Shown: positions 1 to 17,517 of the stretch, one piece after another
How the letters are laid out: each line of letters starts with the position of its first letter
How positions within the stretch are numbered: position 1 is the stretch's first letter
Source: a virus
DNA length: 30,289 nucleotides
Strand: one strand, 5' to 3'
Virus record (IMG/VR): IMGVR_UViG_3300020378_000024
Coordinates: 1-30,289 of that record
Position numbers and translations under genes: made by a program
Notes under the pieces: model-generated
The model's database searches: none
What the model was told of the DNA's origin: nothing
What the model saw: only the letters and a program-made list of their open reading frames with translations

Positions 1-510
1 ATTATCATCACTAGCATTTTTCGTTATTATCTTTTGCTCCTCTTCCTCTAATTCTTCAGGTTCTACTTCTATTATTTTACCAGCAGGTAATACACCACCT
101 GTATCATAATAAAGTTGTTTCATACGTTCTAACACTTCTTCTTTTGACATGGTATCTACTCTGTTTACAGTAAGTTCACTTCTGTTCACATACAAACCTG
201 CAGCTTTACCACGAGCCACCTCTGCTGTGACTGCTGCAGAGAAAGCATTATTACGCATAGCACCATCACGAATATCTTTCAAATCTTTTAGATGAGTTCC
301 TAAACTTAATTCTGCCTTGTCTGCAGCTTTTTCTTGCAACTCACTTATTCTCTTTTGAACTAATGGATTATCTTTACTCGTTAGCACTGTACCAGCTTTC
401 CCTGCATTCTTCTCGCTGTACCCAGCATCTTTTGCAGCATCTTTCTTGCTCATGCCTTTAGCGACATTTTGAGCAAATTTTTCTTGCTTTGGTGTTAGCT
501 TATCCGCCAT
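1..510 (-). CDS. terS: Terminase small subunit, C-terminus cut by window edge
   Basis: An open frame of 170 codons starts at ATG 510 and runs off the left edge. The N-terminal third (LTPKQEKFAQ..GMSKKDAAKDAGYSEKNA) has the look of the helix-turn-helix Terminase_2 small subunits, which bind the phage packaging site and hand DNA to the large subunit. Residues about 45-110 are helical and rich in Glu and Lys; the visible end becomes very acidic (VEPEELEEEEQ). The gene overlaps the stop of the preceding gene by 16 nt and its Shine-Dalgarno is weak. It is last in the leftward block, so the large terminase probably lies just beyond position 1. Family call is from sequence pattern; the missing C-terminus cannot be judged. 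Confidence 0.8.
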   Translation of the reverse strand, partial: MADKLTPKQEKFAQNVAKGMSKKDAAKDAGYSEKNAGKAGTVLTSKDNPLVQKRISELQEKAADKAELSLGTHLKDLKDIRDGAMRNNAFSAAVTAEVARGKAAGLYVNRSELTVNRVDTMSKEEVLERMKQLYYDTGGVLPAGKIIEVEPEELEEEEQKIITKNASDDN

Positions 511-3705: not shown

Positions 3706-3928
3706 CTTCAATCATCTCCCTTTTCTGTCGTGGCATGTACCCTAAAGCCCAGCAACTTATCACTATAAGTTTTTTCTTTATATCGTCGTATGAGTTCCAA
3801 TCTCTTATTTCCTCAGCTGTGCGACCACAACCTTTACAAACCACAGTACCCCATTGAGTGACTGAGCAAGTTCCTATACATGGAGAGTCAGCTAAGCCTG
3901 TTGTTCGATGTAGAGATTTCTGAGCCAT
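3683..3928 (-). CDS. DUF1289 family four-cysteine protein
   Basis: An 81-aa protein with the DUF1289 signature: DSPCIGTC at residues 14-21, then CKGCGRTAEEIRDW at 31-44. Cys17, Cys21, Cys31 and Cys34 form a C-x3-C-x9-C-x2-C set able to bind a metal or Fe-S centre. The family is mainly known as small proteins of proteobacterial chromosomes and has no settled function. The gene overlaps the HTH gene upstream and the small hypothetical downstream. The family call is confident; its role in the phage is unknown. It probably came from a proteobacterial host. Confidence 0.8.
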   Translation of the reverse strand: MAQKSLHRTTGLADSPCIGTCSVTQWGTVVCKGCGRTAEEIRDWNSYDDIKKKLIVISCWALGYMPRQKREMIEDEEIHSR

Positions 3929-4208
3929 TCCTGCTTTTTATGAGTCTTATACCATTTTCTCTAAGCCACCCTCTCAACACATCATTATGCATATCAGGGT
4001 ACTTCTCTTTTACTTTTTTACAAACTTCATTATAAACCTTTAATCCCTTGTAGTAATCACTATGCCCTAGCTTACACATACGAACTATCTGCCACACCCT
4101 CTGTTTTGAAATTTTATATTTCATACCTATCTCTTCTAAAGTAGCGTCAGAATTTTTATACAACATGTATATAGAAAAATACATTCTCTTTTTATCGTAC
4201 CTAGTCAT
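3888..4208 (-). CDS. HTH protein with sigma-70 region 4-like motif
   Basis: A 106-aa protein. Residues 22-42 (ATLEEIGMKYKISKQRVWQIV) match the pattern of sigma-70 region 4 and related helix-turn-helix domains (LxEIGxxxxIsxxRVxQI), which recognise -35 elements or operators. The C-terminal half is basic and helical with no further motif. It lacks regions 2 and 3, so it cannot be a full sigma factor; it may be a transcription regulator or a sigma-appropriation protein acting on the conserved intergenic elements of this phage (inference). The start ATG 4208 overlaps the stop of the cytidylyltransferase gene. Confidence 0.65.
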   Translation of the reverse strand: MTRYDKKRMYFSIYMLYKNSDATLEEIGMKYKISKQRVWQIVRMCKLGHSDYYKGLKVYNEVCKKVKEKYPDMHNDVLRGWLRENGIRLIKSRNGSEISTSNNRLS

Positions 4209-7474: not shown

Positions 7475-8524
7475 TTACTTTATTCTTCTAGATAACCATC
7501 TAAAACAAGCTTCCATCCAGTCATCAGCCTTACAGTGTTGTATTTCTATAAGTGCTTCTTCTTTCATACCTTTCTTAGAAAGATACCAAGCATCTTGTAT
7601 AGGGGCTGCGACCTCAGAGAAAAATGGGTCGTTAAACTCCAACTGCTCAAAAGGTTTTCTAGTAAAAAACATAATTAAGTCAAATTCCCAATCACGGAAG
7701 CCTACGCTAACCATAGGATAGGGATTTACTTCGTCTAGTTTATACGGATTGTGATTAATTAATAGCTTTATTGTGTAATAATCAAAAGAATCTATCTGTA
7801 GTAGTTTTTCTCTCATAGGCTCGTACACGTTTAAATATGCATGATAATTATTACTTACCTGATAGTACTTACCTATTCGGATACCTGTTGCTGCAGCTAC
7901 AAACTCATGCAGCATTGACATGTGCACTACGTTAGCTCCATATGCACCCCAGATAATATCGTTTGACCTATTTGATACTGTCATATCGAGACGAGGACTG
8001 TAGCCGTCAATGTGTACAGTTTTAAAGTATATAGCCGTATTACAGGGTACGTCAGCTCCATCTCGCCCTAAATCGCCCACAGCGTCCCACATTTGTAGTA
8101 CACAGCGTCTGTCATAAATGTCATTTCTAAGTCTATCGATGATAATTCTTATTTGATCTTTGCCAGCAAAATCTTTAAACGTGGGGTCTTTAAAATAACT
8201 ACGCCATCTCCATCCATACGCTCCCCACAAAGTATCACCATCATCACTATACCTACTCATGCCTTTATTGTAATGTTCCATAGTGGCTAAGTCATTAAAA
8301 CCAGCTAACATCCATAAACCTTCCATAAAATGGAAAAAGGGGTTAGCGTCTCTATCTGGGTCAAATAAAACTCTCTCACGAGGGTTAGCATAAACTGTAG
8401 TGACAGGGTCTTCTACAGTGATAACTTCACCGTTCCTAGTTTTTTCTACGTGACCGTGTGAGTCTAATAAGTCCATGCCTCTCAAAAAGGCATCGTTCAC
8501 GTTTCTACATTTTAGTGTGTGCAT
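7475..8524 (-). CDS. Thymidylate synthase / dUMP hydroxymethylase-like enzyme
   Basis: A 349-aa member of the thymidylate synthase fold, longer than cellular ThyA (about 264 aa). Seen: HFMEGLWMLAG (65-75), the phosphate-binding RR at 139-140, the nucleophile Cys161 in VPCN, RSND (186-189) and GAYGAN ending at Asn198, plus HAY (228-230). Asn198 corresponds to the residue that selects dUMP over dCMP, so a dCMP enzyme is unlikely. The residue after the nucleophile is Asn, not the His of standard ThyA, and the Asn198 loop is one residue longer, as in divergent phage enzymes. With a glycosyltransferase and an aGPT/HMUDK-like gene directly upstream, synthesis of 5-hydroxymethyl-dUMP is plausible; plain dTMP synthesis remains possible. 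AGGAG precedes ATG 8524. Confidence 0.85.
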   Translation of the reverse strand: MHTLKCRNVNDAFLRGMDLLDSHGHVEKTRNGEVITVEDPVTTVYANPRERVLFDPDRDANPFFHFMEGLWMLAGFNDLATMEHYNKGMSRYSDDGDTLWGAYGWRWRSYFKDPTFKDFAGKDQIRIIIDRLRNDIYDRRCVLQMWDAVGDLGRDGADVPCNTAIYFKTVHIDGYSPRLDMTVSNRSNDIIWGAYGANVVHMSMLHEFVAAATGIRIGKYYQVSNNYHAYLNVYEPMREKLLQIDSFDYYTIKLLINHNPYKLDEVNPYPMVSVGFRDWEFDLIMFFTRKPFEQLEFNDPFFSEVAAPIQDAWYLSKKGMKEEALIEIQHCKADDWMEACFRWLSRRIK

Positions 8525-9300
8525 TACTCTCCTACTCCTTCTTTATATGCTTTCTTCCAACCTATGATTACATCCTTACGAGGTAGTCCGTTCCAAGCAG
8601 TTTTAGTTTGTTTCTCTACTACCTTAACACATGTAGGGTGTAAGGAGTGTAGTCTTTCTGCACCTTCATTGTGTACATCAATAGTTCGCCACTCACTACA
8701 ACCACCGTCAGCGTTAGATGATTTTTGACCTTGTGCGTAATAGAAACTTACCTTACATGCTTTACCTTTTCTCAGCAGTTGTAGGGCTATATCAAAATCT
8801 TCCATTACCCTAGTCCTACCCCACTCTATATCATCAGGAAACTCGTTTAAGTTATAAGCGAGTACCCTCATGTATCGAGTATTTTCTACAGATAAATCTT
8901 CTACCCTATTATTACCCTCCCTAGCACTTACACCCACGTGGGCATAACCTTGACTGAGCCACTCGTCTAATAAGCCAAACATAGCAGGATACTCATCAGA
9001 CTCTAAGTATCGTAAGTGCCAGTCGGTAGGGCTTTTACGAATGTAAAAACGTAAATCATCATCTAGCATAACTATATGGGGGTCATCGCTATGCTCTATA
9101 ATATATTTTCGTTTAGCCCCTATGCCTATACAGTCCTCTGGGACTACCATTTTAGGTGTGTTAGGATATTTAGTATATAAGTGTTGCTCATCGTGGTCAA
9201 TGACTAACGTCACGTCTCCATTAACTTGCATCCATTCGGGAAACCATTTTAGAGTTTCTTGATTAGTGGGTCTTCCACGAGTTGGTATATATATTTTCAT
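8524..9300 (-). CDS. GT-A glycosyltransferase-like, possibly TET-associated type
   Basis: A 258-aa protein opening MKIYIPTRGRP, as in GT-A nucleotide-sugar transferases, with the metal-binding DDD at residues 80-82 (HIVMLDDDLRF) and a possible catalytic acid in VMEDFD (165-170). The conserved IGIGAKRKYIIEH (58-70) precedes the DxD segment, as in GT-A proteins encoded by phages next to base-modification enzymes (TAGT group; recalled, not searched). Predicted to move a sugar onto a hydroxymethylated base or another acceptor. Its start overlaps the stop of the aGPT/HMUDK-like gene (ATGA) and its stop overlaps the TS-like start, so the three are translated together. Surface-glycan or capsid glycosylation is the alternative. 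Confidence 0.72.
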   Translation of the reverse strand: MKIYIPTRGRPTNQETLKWFPEWMQVNGDVTLVIDHDEQHLYTKYPNTPKMVVPEDCIGIGAKRKYIIEHSDDPHIVMLDDDLRFYIRKSPTDWHLRYLESDEYPAMFGLLDEWLSQGYAHVGVSAREGNNRVEDLSVENTRYMRVLAYNLNEFPDDIEWGRTRVMEDFDIALQLLRKGKACKVSFYYAQGQKSSNADGGCSEWRTIDVHNEGAERLHSLHPTCVKVVEKQTKTAWNGLPRKDVIIGWKKAYKEGVGE

Positions 9301-10157
9301 AAGTATTGTGCCTCGTTAAAATTAGGGTATTTACTGTAGTTATATTTTGCTCTAGGTCTACCCTCGCCTAACCTAGTTCTCTCATATTTATCAAACTCAC
9401 ATAAACTATGCTCTATCTCTCTCATCTCTAGCTTTGGTACATGTGGCTCTAGATATTTATCTGCTATTTGTAAAAGCTCATACATCTCTGCGTTCCAGTC
9501 ATGTTTATTTGAGTCCCAAGTAAGCGTTCTTAAATTCATTCTATTTAGTCCACGCTTTGCTCCTGGACCTGGATTTGCCCAAGTATATATATCACGAGCA
9601 TTCCTTAATAAATGTGTGTGCCTTAAATCTGTGACAACTTCGTATGACATAAACCCACTAAATCCAGCGTAAGGAAGATAGTTTCTCCAAGTCTCTTCTA
9701 AACTACCAGAAACTATCTCTGGGTGGTTATTATATAAAGGTGTAAGTATTTTGTCTACTGTTTGTTCTATCTTAGTACCACCTAAAGTACCTGTCAACAT
9801 ATATGCACCTGTGTAAACTTTTTCTCCTCTATCCATTCTATCCTGCATTATGGCTTTTACCTTTTCTGGTTGCCAATCCTCAGGGAAACCTATCTCTTCT
9901 AGGGTGGATGGCCAATTTATTTGACGAGCCACGGACATTGAGAAAGCTAAGTTAGGGTGGTCAAAGTATGGCTCTCTCCAGTTTGTTCTTACCCATTCTG
10001 TGACTGTGTCTAGTTCTCTAAACACATTACAAAAACTATAAGTTTTTAATATCTTATCTTCTGTCCACGGTGGATGAAGACCGTTTTTTCTCCTTAAATA
10101 TATTTGGTGTCTTTCATTTATGTAGTTAAAAAACCCTTCTACTTTATCTTGTACCAT
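9297..10157 (-). CDS. 5-hmdU kinase helical domain / aGPT-PPlase-like DNA hypermodification protein
   Basis: A 286-aa protein, mostly helical. The region RKNGLHPPWTEDKIL..YSFCNVFRELDTVTEW (23-56) has the hallmark of the family called 5-hmdU DNA kinase helical domain and its relatives, the alpha-glutamyl/putrescinyl thymine pyrophosphorylases, which work on 5-hmdU or its pyrophosphate ester in phage DNA. Later segments: TGAYMLTG (117-124), WRNYLPYAGFSGFMSYEVVTDLRHT (162-186), WANPGPGAKRGLNR (193-206). No P-loop is present, so it is not itself a kinase; it may be the transferase/glycosylase-like part. Family recognition is by motif memory, not a search. It overlaps the 155-aa gene by 19 nt and the glycosyltransferase by 4 nt. 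Confidence 0.7.
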   Translation of the reverse strand: MVQDKVEGFFNYINERHQIYLRRKNGLHPPWTEDKILKTYSFCNVFRELDTVTEWVRTNWREPYFDHPNLAFSMSVARQINWPSTLEEIGFPEDWQPEKVKAIMQDRMDRGEKVYTGAYMLTGTLGGTKIEQTVDKILTPLYNNHPEIVSGSLEETWRNYLPYAGFSGFMSYEVVTDLRHTHLLRNARDIYTWANPGPGAKRGLNRMNLRTLTWDSNKHDWNAEMYELLQIADKYLEPHVPKLEMREIEHSLCEFDKYERTRLGEGRPRAKYNYSKYPNFNEAQYL

Positions 10158-10651: not shown

Positions 10652-12145
10652 CTAAAAAATAAACTGTTTTCTAGTTTTAGACCTCACTATGTGTAGGTTT
10701 TCTTTAGTTCTAGTCACACCTACATAAAAGTTTCTACACTCGTTGTCAGGGTTTCTATATAATTCATCGTAAGACTTAGTAGCCATATCAGATAATAAAA
10801 CTACGTTGTCACACTCACCACCTTTAGAAGCATGTATAGTGCTAAGTTTTATCCTTGATGTATTTAAGTTTTCTTTTCTCCTCAAGCAAGATATTAGGTA
10901 CTCTCTCTGAGTTATACCTATAAGGTCAAATGATTCATGCCATATACCGTCTACTAATAAACCATAGTCTCTTTTTAAATCTCCCATACTCAAAACTGTA
11001 TCGCCTAATAAACTTTTTAATGTTTTATACCCCTTCTTAACTCCCTTACCAGCCCTCATATACGAGTAGATTTTTCTTATACTGTCAGCTTCTATTTTCT
11101 GACCTTTCCTTAACCTTTCCCAATCTTTTATAGCATTGATTAAAGTATCAGACACAGGAGATTTACCTGCCCTCTGATAAAATCTACCAGACTTTTTAAG
11201 GTAGTCCTCTACTTGATTCAGTAGATAATTATTTCTAGCTAAAAATAACCATTCACCTTCTGACACATCAATATGTTCAAAATCCATATGTATATTTATT
11301 TGACCCTCTTCTTCTCTAGGCTCCCATACCTTTTCCTTTCTATTACCTATTCTTTTTACTATTCTTAATGCCACATCGTGTACTTTTCTAGGTACTCTGT
11401 ATGATTGTTTTAAATAAATGTTATTACCTTTTAAATTTATAAAATGATTTACATCAGCACCTGCCCATTTATAAATGGCTTGATCATCATCACCAGCTAT
11501 GTACACATGCTTTACACCTTCTGCTAATTTTTCTACACACTTCCACTGTAGAGCTGATAAATCTTGTGCCTCGTCTATAATTAATACATCTAAGTTAGGT
11601 TTGGTGTCGTGAGTAAGAAACATCTCTAACATGTCTGTAAAATCGATTAAAAAGTTTTGGCTCTTATACTTAGAATAGTTTTTACAAAACCAATTAAAAT
11701 GCATCCATGTTATATCTAAATCGTTAGCGTTGTTCCATATTTCTTTATAGCCCATTGATTGATTACGAGCCATGTTTTCTAAGAACAGCATTCTATCCCC
11801 CTTGCTTGATAGTGTCATTATATTTTCACCATCCCACGCAGAGTTTATTCTCTCACCTATAGTCCTACTAAACTCTCTAAGATTACTCCTAGCTAATACA
11901 TCGTTCTTAGTAAAACCTAACCAATGATAACAGAGTGAGTGTAGCGTCCTAAAATAACACAGCTCTTGGCTTGTGTATGAAAACTTACCCATAGCTCTTG
12001 CGAGTGCTTCGTTTGCAGCTTTTTTAGTAAATGCTAAGTAGCCAAGTTTTTCTGGTGGAGTACCTTTCTCAAAATACTCTTCTACTTTGTTCAAAAGGTA
12101 CGTTGTTTTTCCAGTTCCAGGTGGACCAAGAACCACGTTATACAT
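10652..12145 (-). CDS. SF1 DNA helicase, UvrD/Rep-like
   Basis: A 497-aa superfamily 1A helicase with all main motifs: Walker A GPPGTGKTT (7-15), LAFTKKAANEA (38-47, motif Ia region), FRTLHSL (65-71), Walker B VLIIDEAQD (187-195), IAGDDDQAIYKWAG (216-229), SYRVP (248-252), STIHASKGGECDNVVLL (435-451) and YVGVTRTKENL (474-484). It should unwind DNA 3'-5' with ATP. At under 500 aa it lacks most of the accessory 2B material of cellular UvrD. The start ATG 12145 overlaps the primase stop (TAATG), so helicase and primase are co-translated and are likely partners at the fork. No DnaB-type helicase is seen in the window, so this may be the replicative helicase, or a recombination helicase if another lies outside. 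Confidence 0.93.
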   Translation of the reverse strand: MYNVVLGPPGTGKTTYLLNKVEEYFEKGTPPEKLGYLAFTKKAANEALARAMGKFSYTSQELCYFRTLHSLCYHWLGFTKNDVLARSNLREFSRTIGERINSAWDGENIMTLSSKGDRMLFLENMARNQSMGYKEIWNNANDLDITWMHFNWFCKNYSKYKSQNFLIDFTDMLEMFLTHDTKPNLDVLIIDEAQDLSALQWKCVEKLAEGVKHVYIAGDDDQAIYKWAGADVNHFINLKGNNIYLKQSYRVPRKVHDVALRIVKRIGNRKEKVWEPREEEGQINIHMDFEHIDVSEGEWLFLARNNYLLNQVEDYLKKSGRFYQRAGKSPVSDTLINAIKDWERLRKGQKIEADSIRKIYSYMRAGKGVKKGYKTLKSLLGDTVLSMGDLKRDYGLLVDGIWHESFDLIGITQREYLISCLRRKENLNTSRIKLSTIHASKGGECDNVVLLSDMATKSYDELYRNPDNECRNFYVGVTRTKENLHIVRSKTRKQFIF

Positions 12146-13659
12146 TATAAGTCTGACCCCTCAAAGTTAGTTGGCTCAAGCTCTAAGTTCTCTACTCCAT
12201 ATTCAAACTCAGGTATAGACCATACATTAACTCCCCTACCTTTTAAGTTTAAAAACTTGTGTTCAGCTTTCATGTCTCTTAGCTTAGATGCTATTCTGTT
12301 AGTATCCATTTCTGTGAACCTGTGTTTTAAAAGGTACTCTTTTAAATCTTTAATTCTAAAAAAGGTACGACTATCTTCTGTGAAAGGCTTACCTAAAAGT
12401 ATCTCGTCTCTTGTATTAGCTTGTGCCATATCAGTACAAAAAGATTCGAGTAAATCCATAAACTGCCCCTCTACAGAAATATCATCACTTACCTCTATAA
12501 TCTCCATACCGTTGTCCATTAAGTTTTGTATAAGAGTCTGCCAAGCCCTGTCGTTCATACGCTGTGGCATTATATTTAAAATCTCCATACACACTCTTTG
12601 AAACTTTATTTGATTTTGAAGTTGTTCGGTGCTTAACTCTAATCTTTTATCATCAATAGATAAAAACCAGAGAGGTGGATTACTGTCTAACTTAGCTAAA
12701 CTAGAGAATGTAGGAGCCGTGTTCCCGTTGCCGATGCCGTACTTACAGCTCCTACATTTACTTACATTACAGTAAGACTTGATTGGTTCATCTGAGCATT
12801 TATAGTTGTACTCTTTTTTTCTTAATGTACTTATTAAGGTTAAAACTTCTTGAGCAGGTAAAGGTGGTGTCACATATTTTCTGTTATACTCTTCTATCTC
12901 AGTTTCCCAAGTTTCTGGTATAGCTTTCTTTAAATATACACCCACATTAAATAAACCATTATTTCTTGTGCCTTCTGGAAAACCTTGTTTAAGTAATACT
13001 TGTAGACAAGGTGGACCGTCTTTCATGTCATCTAATAGAGGTACTTCTAACTCTAGTAATTCTTCTAAACTTAACGACCTTTTTTCTATATGCTCTATAA
13101 AGCCGTCTATACTTAGTGCCTCGCCCTTAGTATCGAAAGCGTACCTAAGAGAGTTTTCGCCCTCGAAATAGGGCATATTTAGCCATGAGCCTAAGTCTCC
13201 CCTATCTACTAATACCTCTCTTTGCTTAGGAAATATCTCTACACCACCATAACCTAGTCCTGCAGATATTTCTCTTAACTTATCTTGCATATCTCCTGCA
13301 CTTACTCGCTCTCGAGTAAAACAGTATATGTGAGCTCCACCACTTTTACTTCTACACACTATAAGTGGTAAGCCAAATTCTTCTATCTTTAATACTAATT
13401 TTTTTAAATCTAATGAGTATTGGTCAACGTCAATGGCACCCCACCGTACCATGTTTTCTTCGTCTATAGGTATAATACCTAGCCCTGATTTACCACTAAG
13501 GTGGTCGTCCCAATGATTTGTAGTAGCCCCTACAGTTTTAATAGTTTTTGCTTTACCTGATTTTTTCTGACCTGTAGTTGCTATGTCAACAGTAAAAGTA
13601 CCATGAGCTCTGTTAGAGCCTCTGAATATTTCATTTAATTTATTTGAATAATTCTCCAA
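12145..13659 (-). CDS. Archaeo-eukaryotic-type primase (TOTE-like AEP) with zinc-binding segment
   Basis: A 504-aa protein. The AEP catalytic core shows WGAIDVDQY (73-81; Asp77 and Asp79), VCRSKSGGAHIYCF (101-114) and GGVEIFPKQ (138-146), followed by GSWLNMPYF (157-165). This matches the primase-polymerases described in TOTE conflict systems and many phages. After GTRNNGLFNVGVYLKK (230-245, PriCT-like) comes a cysteine group (Cys288, Cys297, Cys302, Cys305) suited to zinc. The C-terminal third is unassigned. It starts at TTG 13659: GAGG is five bases upstream and the frame has no ATG or GTG between the upstream in-frame stop and this codon. A strong hairpin lies just upstream of that ribosome-binding site. 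Confidence 0.85.
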   Translation of the reverse strand: MENYSNKLNEIFRGSNRAHGTFTVDIATTGQKKSGKAKTIKTVGATTNHWDDHLSGKSGLGIIPIDEENMVRWGAIDVDQYSLDLKKLVLKIEEFGLPLIVCRSKSGGAHIYCFTRERVSAGDMQDKLREISAGLGYGGVEIFPKQREVLVDRGDLGSWLNMPYFEGENSLRYAFDTKGEALSIDGFIEHIEKRSLSLEELLELEVPLLDDMKDGPPCLQVLLKQGFPEGTRNNGLFNVGVYLKKAIPETWETEIEEYNRKYVTPPLPAQEVLTLISTLRKKEYNYKCSDEPIKSYCNVSKCRSCKYGIGNGNTAPTFSSLAKLDSNPPLWFLSIDDKRLELSTEQLQNQIKFQRVCMEILNIMPQRMNDRAWQTLIQNLMDNGMEIIEVSDDISVEGQFMDLLESFCTDMAQANTRDEILLGKPFTEDSRTFFRIKDLKEYLLKHRFTEMDTNRIASKLRDMKAEHKFLNLKGRGVNVWSIPEFEYGVENLELEPTNFEGSDL

Positions 13660-15179: not shown

Positions 15180-15761
15180 TTAAACGCCACTTCTAAATGT
15201 GAGGTTGATTCTCTCTCCACAACCTTTCATATCTAACACTGCGTGTGTACTTCTCATTTGAGATTTACCGTCAAATATAAAAACATCTCCATCTTCCATT
15301 AAATAATGTGTCAAACTTTTTTTAGGAATATACTTAGTGTATATTTCACTAGTGTCTACTCTATCTTTTATGTTCTTTTCGTACTCTAGCCATTCAAATA
15401 CTCTCGGTGCACCAAGAGACACGGACAAAACTATGTCATTTTTAGTAGGTACTGTATCAGAGTGGTGGGGTATGCCTTTACCTTCTGGTCCATAATACCC
15501 ACACAAACAAAAATTAAATTTTACTTTTCTCTTTAACTTCTCACTTACTAAATATTCTGCGTTTAATTTTATAGCAGTCATAGGAGTGGTCCATGGCTCA
15601 GGCTCATATAGTTTACCAGCATAATTAAAAGGGCTATCACCAAATCCACGAGTTGGTCTACCTACTACCTTTTTACCTTTATACATGCGAACTCTTGGCT
15701 CGTCCCAAGTAGTTATGCCACAATCAAAACCTGTAAATTCTCCTTTTATAAATTCCATCAT
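15180..15761 (-). CDS. AlkB-like 2-oxoglutarate/Fe(II) dioxygenase
   Basis: A 193-aa protein with the AlkB pattern: FNFCLCGYYGPEGKGIPHHSD (83-102) giving the HxD iron ligands His100 and Asp102; the distal ligand His173 in STHAV; and ERINLTFR (183-190) where Arg184 and Arg190 bind 2-oxoglutarate and substrate. AlkB enzymes oxidise alkylated bases to reverse damage; some phage and viral members protect nucleic acid or may act on modified bases. Length is close to that of E. coli AlkB. It is the first gene leftward from the control region. ATG 15761 and ATG 15758 are adjacent and neither has a clear Shine-Dalgarno. A role in base modification is inference. Confidence 0.85.
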   Translation of the reverse strand: MMEFIKGEFTGFDCGITTWDEPRVRMYKGKKVVGRPTRGFGDSPFNYAGKLYEPEPWTTPMTAIKLNAEYLVSEKLKRKVKFNFCLCGYYGPEGKGIPHHSDTVPTKNDIVLSVSLGAPRVFEWLEYEKNIKDRVDTSEIYTKYIPKKSLTHYLMEDGDVFIFDGKSQMRSTHAVLDMKGCGERINLTFRSGV

Positions 15762-15807
15762 AATAAGTGATGGTGTGTCTTGTCAAGTTTATTGTCTTAG
15801 GAGGATC

Positions 15808-15870
15808 ATGGAAAATGACAAAACTTATACGGCACCACCATCAGTGCCTATTAGTACTATTTACTATTAG
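15808..15870 (+). CDS. Possible 20-aa leader peptide
   Basis: ATG 15808 is preceded by AGGAGGA (15799-15805), the best Shine-Dalgarno match in the control region, but with only three to four bases of spacing. The frame encodes a 20-residue peptide starting MENDKTYTAPP and ending in TIYY before TAG. It is followed by about 200 bp of non-coding DNA and then the SNF2-like gene in the same direction. It could be a leader peptide, a small anti-host protein or chance. Confidence 0.3.
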   Translation: MENDKTYTAPPSVPISTIYY

Positions 15871-16005
15871 TAGTATAGGGAGATTTTATTTTTAGTAAAG
15901 GATAAATGTTAATTTTAGCTAATAGGTCAATATGTTCTTAGGTATATCCTTAAATAAATCAATTACTTAAGCTACCTATTAGCTGATATATTATCACCCT
16001 ATTAG
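15847..16005. repeat. Four CCTATTAG repeats in the control region
   Basis: CCTATTAG occurs on the plus strand at 15847-15854, 15975-15982 and 15998-16005 and inverted (CTAATAGG) at 15919-15926. The last two extend to a 10-bp identity, CCTATTAGCT, set 23 bp apart; the inverted copy extends to 11 bp with the first of them (15917-15927 against 15974-15984). The arrangement resembles operator or iteron clusters. Confidence 0.6.
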
Positions 16006-16021
16006 CTAGATAGTGCTAATA
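16000..16021. repeat. Inverted repeat ahead of the SNF2-like gene
   Basis: TATTAGC (16000-16006) and GCTAATA (16015-16021) pair around 8 nt. It includes part of the last CCTATTAG copy and lies 54 bp before the SNF2-like start, where a regulator of the rightward promoter could bind. No U-run, so not a terminator. Confidence 0.35.
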
Positions 16022-16074
16022 AATCACGAGCAATCATTTACTTTCTGGTTAAGTATAAATATGCTATCCCCTAT

Positions 16075-17517
16075 ATGAGTCAGTTTATTTATAAAACCAC
16101 ACCGTATGCTCATCAGATAAGTGCATTGAAGATGTCATGTGATAAAGAAGCATTCGCTTTATTTATGGAGATGGGCTGTGGTAAGTCAAAAGTAGTAATT
16201 GACAACTTTGCTAAGTTGTACATAGATAAAAAACTGAACGGTGTACTCATAGTTGCACCCAAAGGTGTATACGATAATTGGTTTACATACGAAATACCAA
16301 CACACTTACCTGACGAAATACCAAGATCGGTAGTCAAATGGTCAAACGCTAATACTAAAAAGAATAAAGAAAACTTAGAAACTCTGTTTGATAAATCAGA
16401 TGAGCTAAAGATATTTATTATGAACATAGAAGCATTCAGTACAAAGAAAGGTACTGAGATAGCTTCTAAGTTTTTAATGGAACGTCAATGTATGTTTATT
16501 ATAGATGAAAGTACAACTATCAAAAACTACAAAGCTAAGAGAACTGTCAATACTGTAAGACTTGGTAAGTATGCATATTATAAAAGAATACTGACAGGCT
16601 CTCCTGTGACAAAAAGTCCACTAGATTTATTTAGTCAATGTTATTTTCTAGACCCATCACTACTAGGTTTCAGTAGTTATTTTTCATTCAGAGCAAGGTT
16701 TGCTGACTTAGTAGAACGTTCCATGAACGGTAGGAACTTTAAATTAGTCACAGGCTATAAGAACTTGAACGAATTAAATGAATTATTAAGGTCATTTAGT
16801 TTCCGTATCTTGAAAAAAGAATGCCTTGACCTTCCTCCAAAAGTGTATATTAAGCGAAAAATAGAGATGACAGACGACCAAAAACGCGTCTACAAGGATA
16901 TTCAACGCAATGCTTTAGCCGTACTGTCAGGCGAAAAGGTCACAATTAACTCTGTAATTACACAAATAGTGAGATTACATCAAATATCTTGTGGTTTTAT
17001 AAATACTGATGAGGGTACTACGAAAGAGTTAGATTCTAATAGGTTGGAAGAATTATTACAGATAATAGAAGAAGTTCAAGGCAAGGTTATTATCTGGGCT
17101 AACTATAGGCATGACATTAGAAAGATAAATAAAGCCCTCAGTGAGAAATATGGCTCTGACTCAGTAGGTATGTACTTTGGTGACGTACAACAATCAGAGC
17201 GTGAAGGTATTATAAGGGATTTTCAAAACCCTGACAGTAAAATGAGATTTTTTGTAGGTAATACACAGACAGGTGGTTATGGTATTACCTTGACTGCTGC
17301 AAATACAGTCATATATTATTCTAATAATTATGATTTAGAGAAAAGGCTACAGTCAGAAGATAGAGCTCATCGTATCGGTCAAAATGATAAGGTCACATAT
17401 ATTGATATAGTGTGTGAAAAAACTGTTGATGAAAAAATAGTGAAAGCCTTGCGTCAAAAACAAAACATTGCTCAAACTGTGCTTGGTGAAGAAAAGTGGA
17501 AAGACTGGTTAGTTTAG
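16075..17517 (+). CDS. SNF2-like SF2 helicase/translocase
   Basis: A 480-aa SNF2/Rad54-like ATPase. The Q-motif-like YAHQISALK (11-19) precedes motif I MEMGCGKSK (31-39); motif II is DEST (144-147) in place of DEAH; motif III LTGSPV (173-178); motif V GNTQTGGYGITLT (395-407); motif VI QSEDRAHRIGQ (426-436). Phage members are thought to move along double-stranded DNA in replication, recombination or fork reversal. It is the only substantial plus-strand gene and stands alone. No Shine-Dalgarno precedes ATG 16075 and a TATAAAT lies 15 bp upstream, so a very short leader is possible. Its stop codon overlaps that of the convergent virion gene. Confidence 0.93.
   Translation: MSQFIYKTTPYAHQISALKMSCDKEAFALFMEMGCGKSKVVIDNFAKLYIDKKLNGVLIVAPKGVYDNWFTYEIPTHLPDEIPRSVVKWSNANTKKNKENLETLFDKSDELKIFIMNIEAFSTKKGTEIASKFLMERQCMFIIDESTTIKNYKAKRTVNTVRLGKYAYYKRILTGSPVTKSPLDLFSQCYFLDPSLLGFSSYFSFRARFADLVERSMNGRNFKLVTGYKNLNELNELLRSFSFRILKKECLDLPPKVYIKRKIEMTDDQKRVYKDIQRNALAVLSGEKVTINSVITQIVRLHQISCGFINTDEGTTKELDSNRLEELLQIIEEVQGKVIIWANYRHDIRKINKALSEKYGSDSVGMYFGDVQQSEREGIIRDFQNPDSKMRFFVGNTQTGGYGITLTAANTVIYYSNNYDLEKRLQSEDRAHRIGQNDKVTYIDIVCEKTVDEKIVKALRQKQNIAQTVLGEEKWKDWLV

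Follow-up and report, generated by a model that had tools for sequence, protein, structure and literature searches.

The window analysed here, 30,289 bp in length, is the whole of a virus record, from an uncultured, tailed marine phage, and its non-coding region at 15762-16074 holds an array of five TATTRGC-type boxes whose geometry is conserved in close relatives and recurs at a second place in their genomes. The array is almost certainly a conserved protein-binding module of some kind. As to its role, the reading we tentatively favor, at slightly less than an even chance and by analogy, is that the region may be one of a pair of initiator-binding origin regions working like oriL and oriR of SPP1; an array for a transcriptional regulator is nearly as likely. 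Replication origins or master control sites have been mapped for very few open-ocean phages. A 2+3 box array that can be detected as a pattern shows, for dozens of marine contigs, where replication starts or an early/late switch should be sought, and could serve as bait for finding its binding protein.

Gene layout and repeats in the window

The leftward strand holds all large genes of the window, with the helicase gene at 16075-17517 as the sole exception. To its left, the region is followed by a 2OG-Fe(II) oxygenase-like gene, two genes like gp33/gp34 of Pam3, and genes for an AEP-TOTE primase and a helicase, with the DNA polymerase gene further left; the virion-type genes are found right of the 16075-17517 helicase gene, on the opposite strand to it. 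The primase gene agrees with the proposal of the initial annotation that the phage has a primase of its own. The best matches of the window helicase in the phage collection searched were those of 023Pt_psg01 (55%) and Pelagibacter phage HTVC027P (51%), and, judged by this top match of 55%, the clade has no close relative in that collection. At 7475-10157, genes for a thymidylate synthase-like protein, a TAGT-type glycosyltransferase and a protein with the helical domain of 5-hmdU DNA kinase are adjacent, a trio that suggests hypermodified thymine in the phage DNA. The features discussed below are as follows.

3888-4208, leftward strand: 106-residue HTH protein (UPF0122/YlxM and sigma-70 region 4-like), an unproven candidate for binding the boxes
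12145-13659, leftward strand: AEP-TOTE-type primase gene
15180-15761, leftward strand: 2OG-Fe(II) oxygenase-like gene, left neighbor and first gene of the leftward block
15762-16074, no strand: non-coding region with the array, between divergent units, 313 bp, 30% GC
15847-15854, rightward strand: CCTATTAG copy outside the conserved array
15863-15870, rightward strand: ACTATTAG, a one-mismatch copy outside the conserved array
15872-15877, leftward strand: TATACT, counterpart of the left outward TATA element, 47 bp from L1
15878-15916, no strand: A/T-rich tract left of the array, from AT content in relatives
15917-15926, leftward strand: box L1 (AGCTAATAGG; AATA at 15921-15924)
15927-15936, leftward strand: box L2, degenerate in the window (AATA at 15929-15932)
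15975-15984, rightward strand: box R1 (CCTATTAGCT; TATT at 15977-15980)
15987-15996, rightward strand: box R2, degenerate in the window (TATTAT; TATT at 15989-15992)
15998-16007, rightward strand: box R3 (CCTATTAGCT; TATT at 16000-16003)
16020-16028, rightward strand: TAAATCACG, degenerate counterpart (two mismatches) of the TAAAACRTG element of relatives
16075-17517, rightward strand: SNF2/HepA-type helicase gene (phrog_62), right neighbor

The initial annotation had described four copies of CCTATTAG, three direct and one inverted, in AT-rich non-coding DNA. Exact matches at 15847-15854 (+), 15919-15926 (-), 15975-15982 (+) and 15998-16005 (+), spanning 159 bp, bear this out, and the inverted pair CCTATTAGCT/AGCTAATAGG that it listed is likewise present in the window. 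None of 5000 dinucleotide shuffles of the region contained CCTATTAG four times; some 8-mer reached four copies in 49 of the 5000 and some decamer three copies in 16. Elsewhere in the window, a four-copy 8-mer is found in a single stretch, at about 12061. With one mismatch allowed, CCTATTAG is not enriched over the whole window (36 matches versus 35 expected), so the repeat signal is local.

The unit that had been drawn as four CCTATTAG copies is really a five-box array of fixed geometry, with a second copy elsewhere in relatives. The last three CCTATTAG copies are part of this array, which is 80-83 bp long, and comparison with relatives places the copy at 15847 outside it. In the window two inverted boxes (cores at 15921 and 15929) are followed, after a gap of about 45 bp, by three direct boxes (15977, 15989 and 16000). 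The 23 bp spacing remarked on earlier between two CCTATTAG copies (15975 and 15998) is real; the pair encloses the degenerate box R2, so that the spacing is 12 + 11 bp.

Conservation and placement of the two arrays

Relatives were sought by the helicase, and 80 loci were kept (L002-L081). The array pattern, AATA-4/5-AATA-36..50-TATT-8/9-TATT-6..8-TATT, was sought within 500 bp upstream of the helicase gene. Lack of conservation in relatives with the same gene order, which the initial annotation had named as evidence against its proposal, was not what we found: the array lies upstream of the helicase in 55 of the 58 loci (L002-L059) whose helicases are 60-100% identical. Of the three loci lacking it, two are contigs that end at the gene and the third, L052, has the left pair only. 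The pattern occurs in none of the 22 more distant loci (L060-L081), where helicase identity is 48-52%. In those of the 58 loci that extend beyond the region, the counterpart of 15762-16074 measures 288-469 bp; four of them (L031, L036, L037 and L048) have an extra common stretch, AAGTCCTGGACAAATAGA..AGGCTACAACGGTTAAGTTACGGCTTAACACC, directly before the helicase gene.

For counting we used the 56 loci with at least 250 bp of the non-coding region, which gave 46 distinct sequences, including the window, once duplicates were removed. Five-box geometry is present in 45 of the 46, and a narrower-spacing version of the pattern was found in 23 of the 46 real sequences versus 0 of 4600 shuffles. Sequences beyond the strict pattern differ solely by coupled spacings, the main forms being (4,42-44,8,7) and (5,39-40,9,7); the spacing is 8-9 bp between the left boxes and 11-13 bp between the right ones. 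Because the search pattern itself requires the TATT core, the constancy of that core adds no independent evidence. Right after the core the base is always A or G and the next are mostly G and C, hence TATTRGC. Identity between the boxes of array 1, the array at the helicase, is 0.463 within a locus versus 0.425 (0 of 1000 permutations), mainly through R2-R3 and R1-R3, with shared ancestry left in, which makes the signal weak; for array 2 the corresponding identity is not significant (178 of 1000 permutations). These values give weak support to a possible concerted evolution of the boxes.

A scan of 16 records for the right-hand triple detected it in all 16, with a second, very similar copy in 12 (typical form TATTGGCTAACCTATTAGCGACCTATT) and two further unrelated matches; the reversed control pattern gave two matches, in one record. 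Of another 16 records, the 12 that are IMG/VR contigs have the first array without exception, and four of them the second as well, with one unrelated match and one match to the reversed control. The triple is absent from four named phages, HTVC027P, HTVC023P, 023Pt_psg01 and DSL-LC04. Many single-array records are fragments, including the window with its one array; G018, a record of 60,247 bp whose helicase is 96% identical to that of the window, has both arrays.

Among nine long contigs, the full five-box pattern occurs in exactly two places in eight and once in G011 (array 1 only), and it is found nowhere in three HTVC023P-type genomes. A weight-matrix scan gave scores of 38-70 for the arrays, partly circular since the matrix was trained on them, and a next best score, shifted overlaps aside, of 7.6, itself at an array; the best score in the three HTVC023P-type phages was -4.4. 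Array 2 closes the early block, 18-24 kb away from array 1, and precedes the terminase/late genes. In each of the nine long genomes the arrays (one array for G011) rank among the six longest non-coding stretches. Downstream of array 2, loci L089-L100 have a long non-coding stretch rich in short GGACCATGG/GTGGTTCGTGG-like repeated words, and after it come small related proteins of one family, often in several copies per genome.

The strict pattern occurs in 106 stretches over IMG/VR. Of the 80 examined, 21 precede the helicase gene and 34 a terminase gene, 14 have small genes typical of the array 2 region nearby, and 11 lack diagnostic flanks; by eye, six of these 11 are array 2 sequence and five look like chance. 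The GTDB bacterial genome set gave 20 strict-pattern matches, and because none adjoins a gene matched by the phage queries used, they were taken as chance.

The flanks of the arrays are conserved as well. AT content left of both arrays is about 0.8 versus 0.57-0.64 genome-wide, and its mean is 0.79-0.81 across the 60 bp left of L1 (42 sequences). After the right boxes a TAAAACRTG element is present in 34 of 42 array 1 sequences (at most one mismatch) and in 39 of 45 array 2 sequences (one G variant also allowed). Each array is flanked by outward TATA elements, which lie 53-57 bp from L1 on the left and 50-53 bp from TAAAACRTG on the right; they were found in 37 of 42, 36 of 45, 29 of 42 and 39 of 45 sequences versus a background of about 0.05-0.20. 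We regard them as putative promoters and claim no proof of this; no clear -35 element was seen at them. The window departs from its relatives in the two mismatches of its TAAAACRTG counterpart, in the distance of its left TATA from L1 (47 bp) and in a right TATA that overlaps the helicase start codon. A common TATA-AAGAAAC word was tried as a genome-wide promoter motif and led nowhere. In the minus-strand transcript of the window, the 5' leader of the leftward block is bracketed by the arms TGATGGTG/CACCATCA (15768-15775 and 15836-15843); a stem of 7 bp is predicted across 17 relatives, with three pairs changed on both sides, and the leader hairpin may be conserved.

Possible functions of the arrays

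The initial annotation had offered an operator cluster or a replication origin. The conserved array supports that proposal in part, and the two functions are close in probability. Each module combines AT-rich flanks with five TATTRGC-type boxes, an inverted pair separated by about 45 bp from three direct boxes that are 11-13 bp apart. If the arrays are paired origins, a phage initiator would bind the boxes cooperatively, wrap or bend the array, and then open the AT-rich flank. Array 1, which has the primase, polymerase and helicase genes beside it, would be the main bidirectional origin, and array 2, before the terminase/late block, would be a second origin or a fork-stall site with a change of replication mode, as proposed for oriL/oriR of SPP1.

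Several features argue for this reading. The boxes are repeats beside AT-rich DNA, set in long non-coding stretches. Array 1 adjoins the replication block and the helicase gene, and array 2 is at the early/late boundary before the terminase. The same geometry at a second, unlinked place, with exactly two places in eight of the nine long genomes, means that the array is not tied to one promoter context. Left of array 2, moreover, the outward TATA runs antisense into early genes and serves no evident gene. SPP1 and ICP1, compared below, offer precedents. Against an origin, transcription units begin at both arrays, a placement directly explained by a regulator array, and G011 has array 1 only.

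A GC-skew check, proposed in the initial annotation, gave no clean origin signal. In all eight two-array genomes, main-strand genes of the early side have a higher third-position G-C skew than those of the late side. With the analysis restricted to four-fold sites, the GC signal is noisy and T-A skew changes at array 2, that is, at the early/late boundary, with no switch midway round the genome. Since the change falls at that boundary, coding differences explain the skew as well, and GC skew was dropped as proof of an origin. Tandem iteron origins of the lambda O type have head-to-tail direct iterons only; with two of its five boxes inverted the array is not a plain tandem iteron array. Also against an origin, the 20 window proteins scanned gave no Pfam match to a known replisome organiser or Rep family, a gp38-type replisome organiser included. 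A more far-reaching proposal, which we consider unlikely, is a new class of phage replicon in which one initiator outside the known Rep families would bind both arrays via the fixed 2+3 geometry and start replication at array 1, with array 2 marking a switch to concatemer synthesis beside the terminase. Were it true, the skew change at array 2 would be a trace of fork direction.

The main alternative, nearly as likely, is that a regulator of the phage or its host uses the five boxes as binding sites and turns the outward promoters on or off, those of array 1 serving the leftward replication block and the rightward helicase and those of array 2 serving the late block. Divergent units flank array 1, and array 2 has the early block on one side and the terminase/late genes on the other, so that a gene block lies in front of three of the four outward sides; the TATA elements keep fixed distances in both arrays at frequencies above background. 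The antisense direction of the left TATA of array 2 does not fit, nor do the missing -35 element and the overlap of the right TATA of the window with the helicase start.

A candidate regulator, sigma-4/YlxM-like, is the HTH protein encoded at 3888-4208, which has weak likeness to YlxM/UPF0122 and sigma region 4 and is present in 16 of 18 array-bearing records and in none of four array-less phages. Structure prediction gives it a plain HTH fold (mean pLDDT 85), whose best matches in the PDB, the DNA-binding domain of DeoR among them, are above E 0.1. However, many other genes have the same clade-specific distribution, and the protein is absent, profile search included, from G010, a 62 kb contig with both arrays; its candidacy as the box binder is weakened by this absence. 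The binder could also be another regulator or a host protein.

That array 2 is a packaging site, a pac/cos-type signal bound by the small terminase subunit, seems quite improbable. Array 2 does precede the large terminase gene, and no member of the small-terminase family was detected in G011 (L127-L130), the only long genome lacking array 2; the family is present in the eight other long relatives and the three HTVC023P-type phages. Yet the same array stands at the helicase, far from the terminase genes, and those three phages have the small terminase and no array. An RNA element, in which the inverted boxes pair as a transcript hairpin, was rejected as very improbable: window positions 15905-16030 do fold better than shuffles (z -3.6), but L1-R1 pairing has no covariation in 45 sequences (z 0.4, G-U pairing included), the differing distances between left and right boxes preclude one continuous helix between the two sets, and Rfam gave no match at gathering thresholds in 10 sources.

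Comparison with known systems

Literature searches found no description of such a five-box geometry or of its clade-wide pairing, and the available part of a pelagiphage paper (PMC9599517) has no occurrence of 'intergenic', 'origin of replication' or 'promoter'. The HTVC023P-type pelagiphages (HTVC023P, HTVC027P and 023Pt_psg01) have related helicase, primase, polymerase and Pam3 gp33/gp34-like proteins in a similar gene order; they differ in a pre-helicase non-coding gap of merely about 50-70 bp and in having no five-box array anywhere. Satellite phage P4 has two distant cis sites, ori and crr, whose common short repeats (type I iterons) are bound by one replication protein; the repeat sequence and the protein differ from those considered here.

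SPP1, as described in the available part of one account (PMC6316719), has two origins about 13 kb apart, each with direct repeats and an AT-rich region and bound by one protein; one is linked to replication genes, with oriL inside gene 38, and the other lies in a long non-coding stretch of the late region. Our arrays are likewise two separated sites per genome with short repeats beside AT-rich DNA, one beside replication genes and the other at the late region. Unlike those of SPP1, both are non-coding, they are 18-24 kb apart, two of their boxes are inverted, and no counterpart of gp38 was found among the scanned window proteins. For ICP1, the part of the report available to us (PMC7145576) describes an early bidirectional origin and apparently a second one late, near the predicted pac site, an arrangement resembling that proposed here for array 1 and array 2; the ICP1 origins are known from coverage and our arrays from sequence. 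Paired phage origins and operator arrays are both already known kinds of element.
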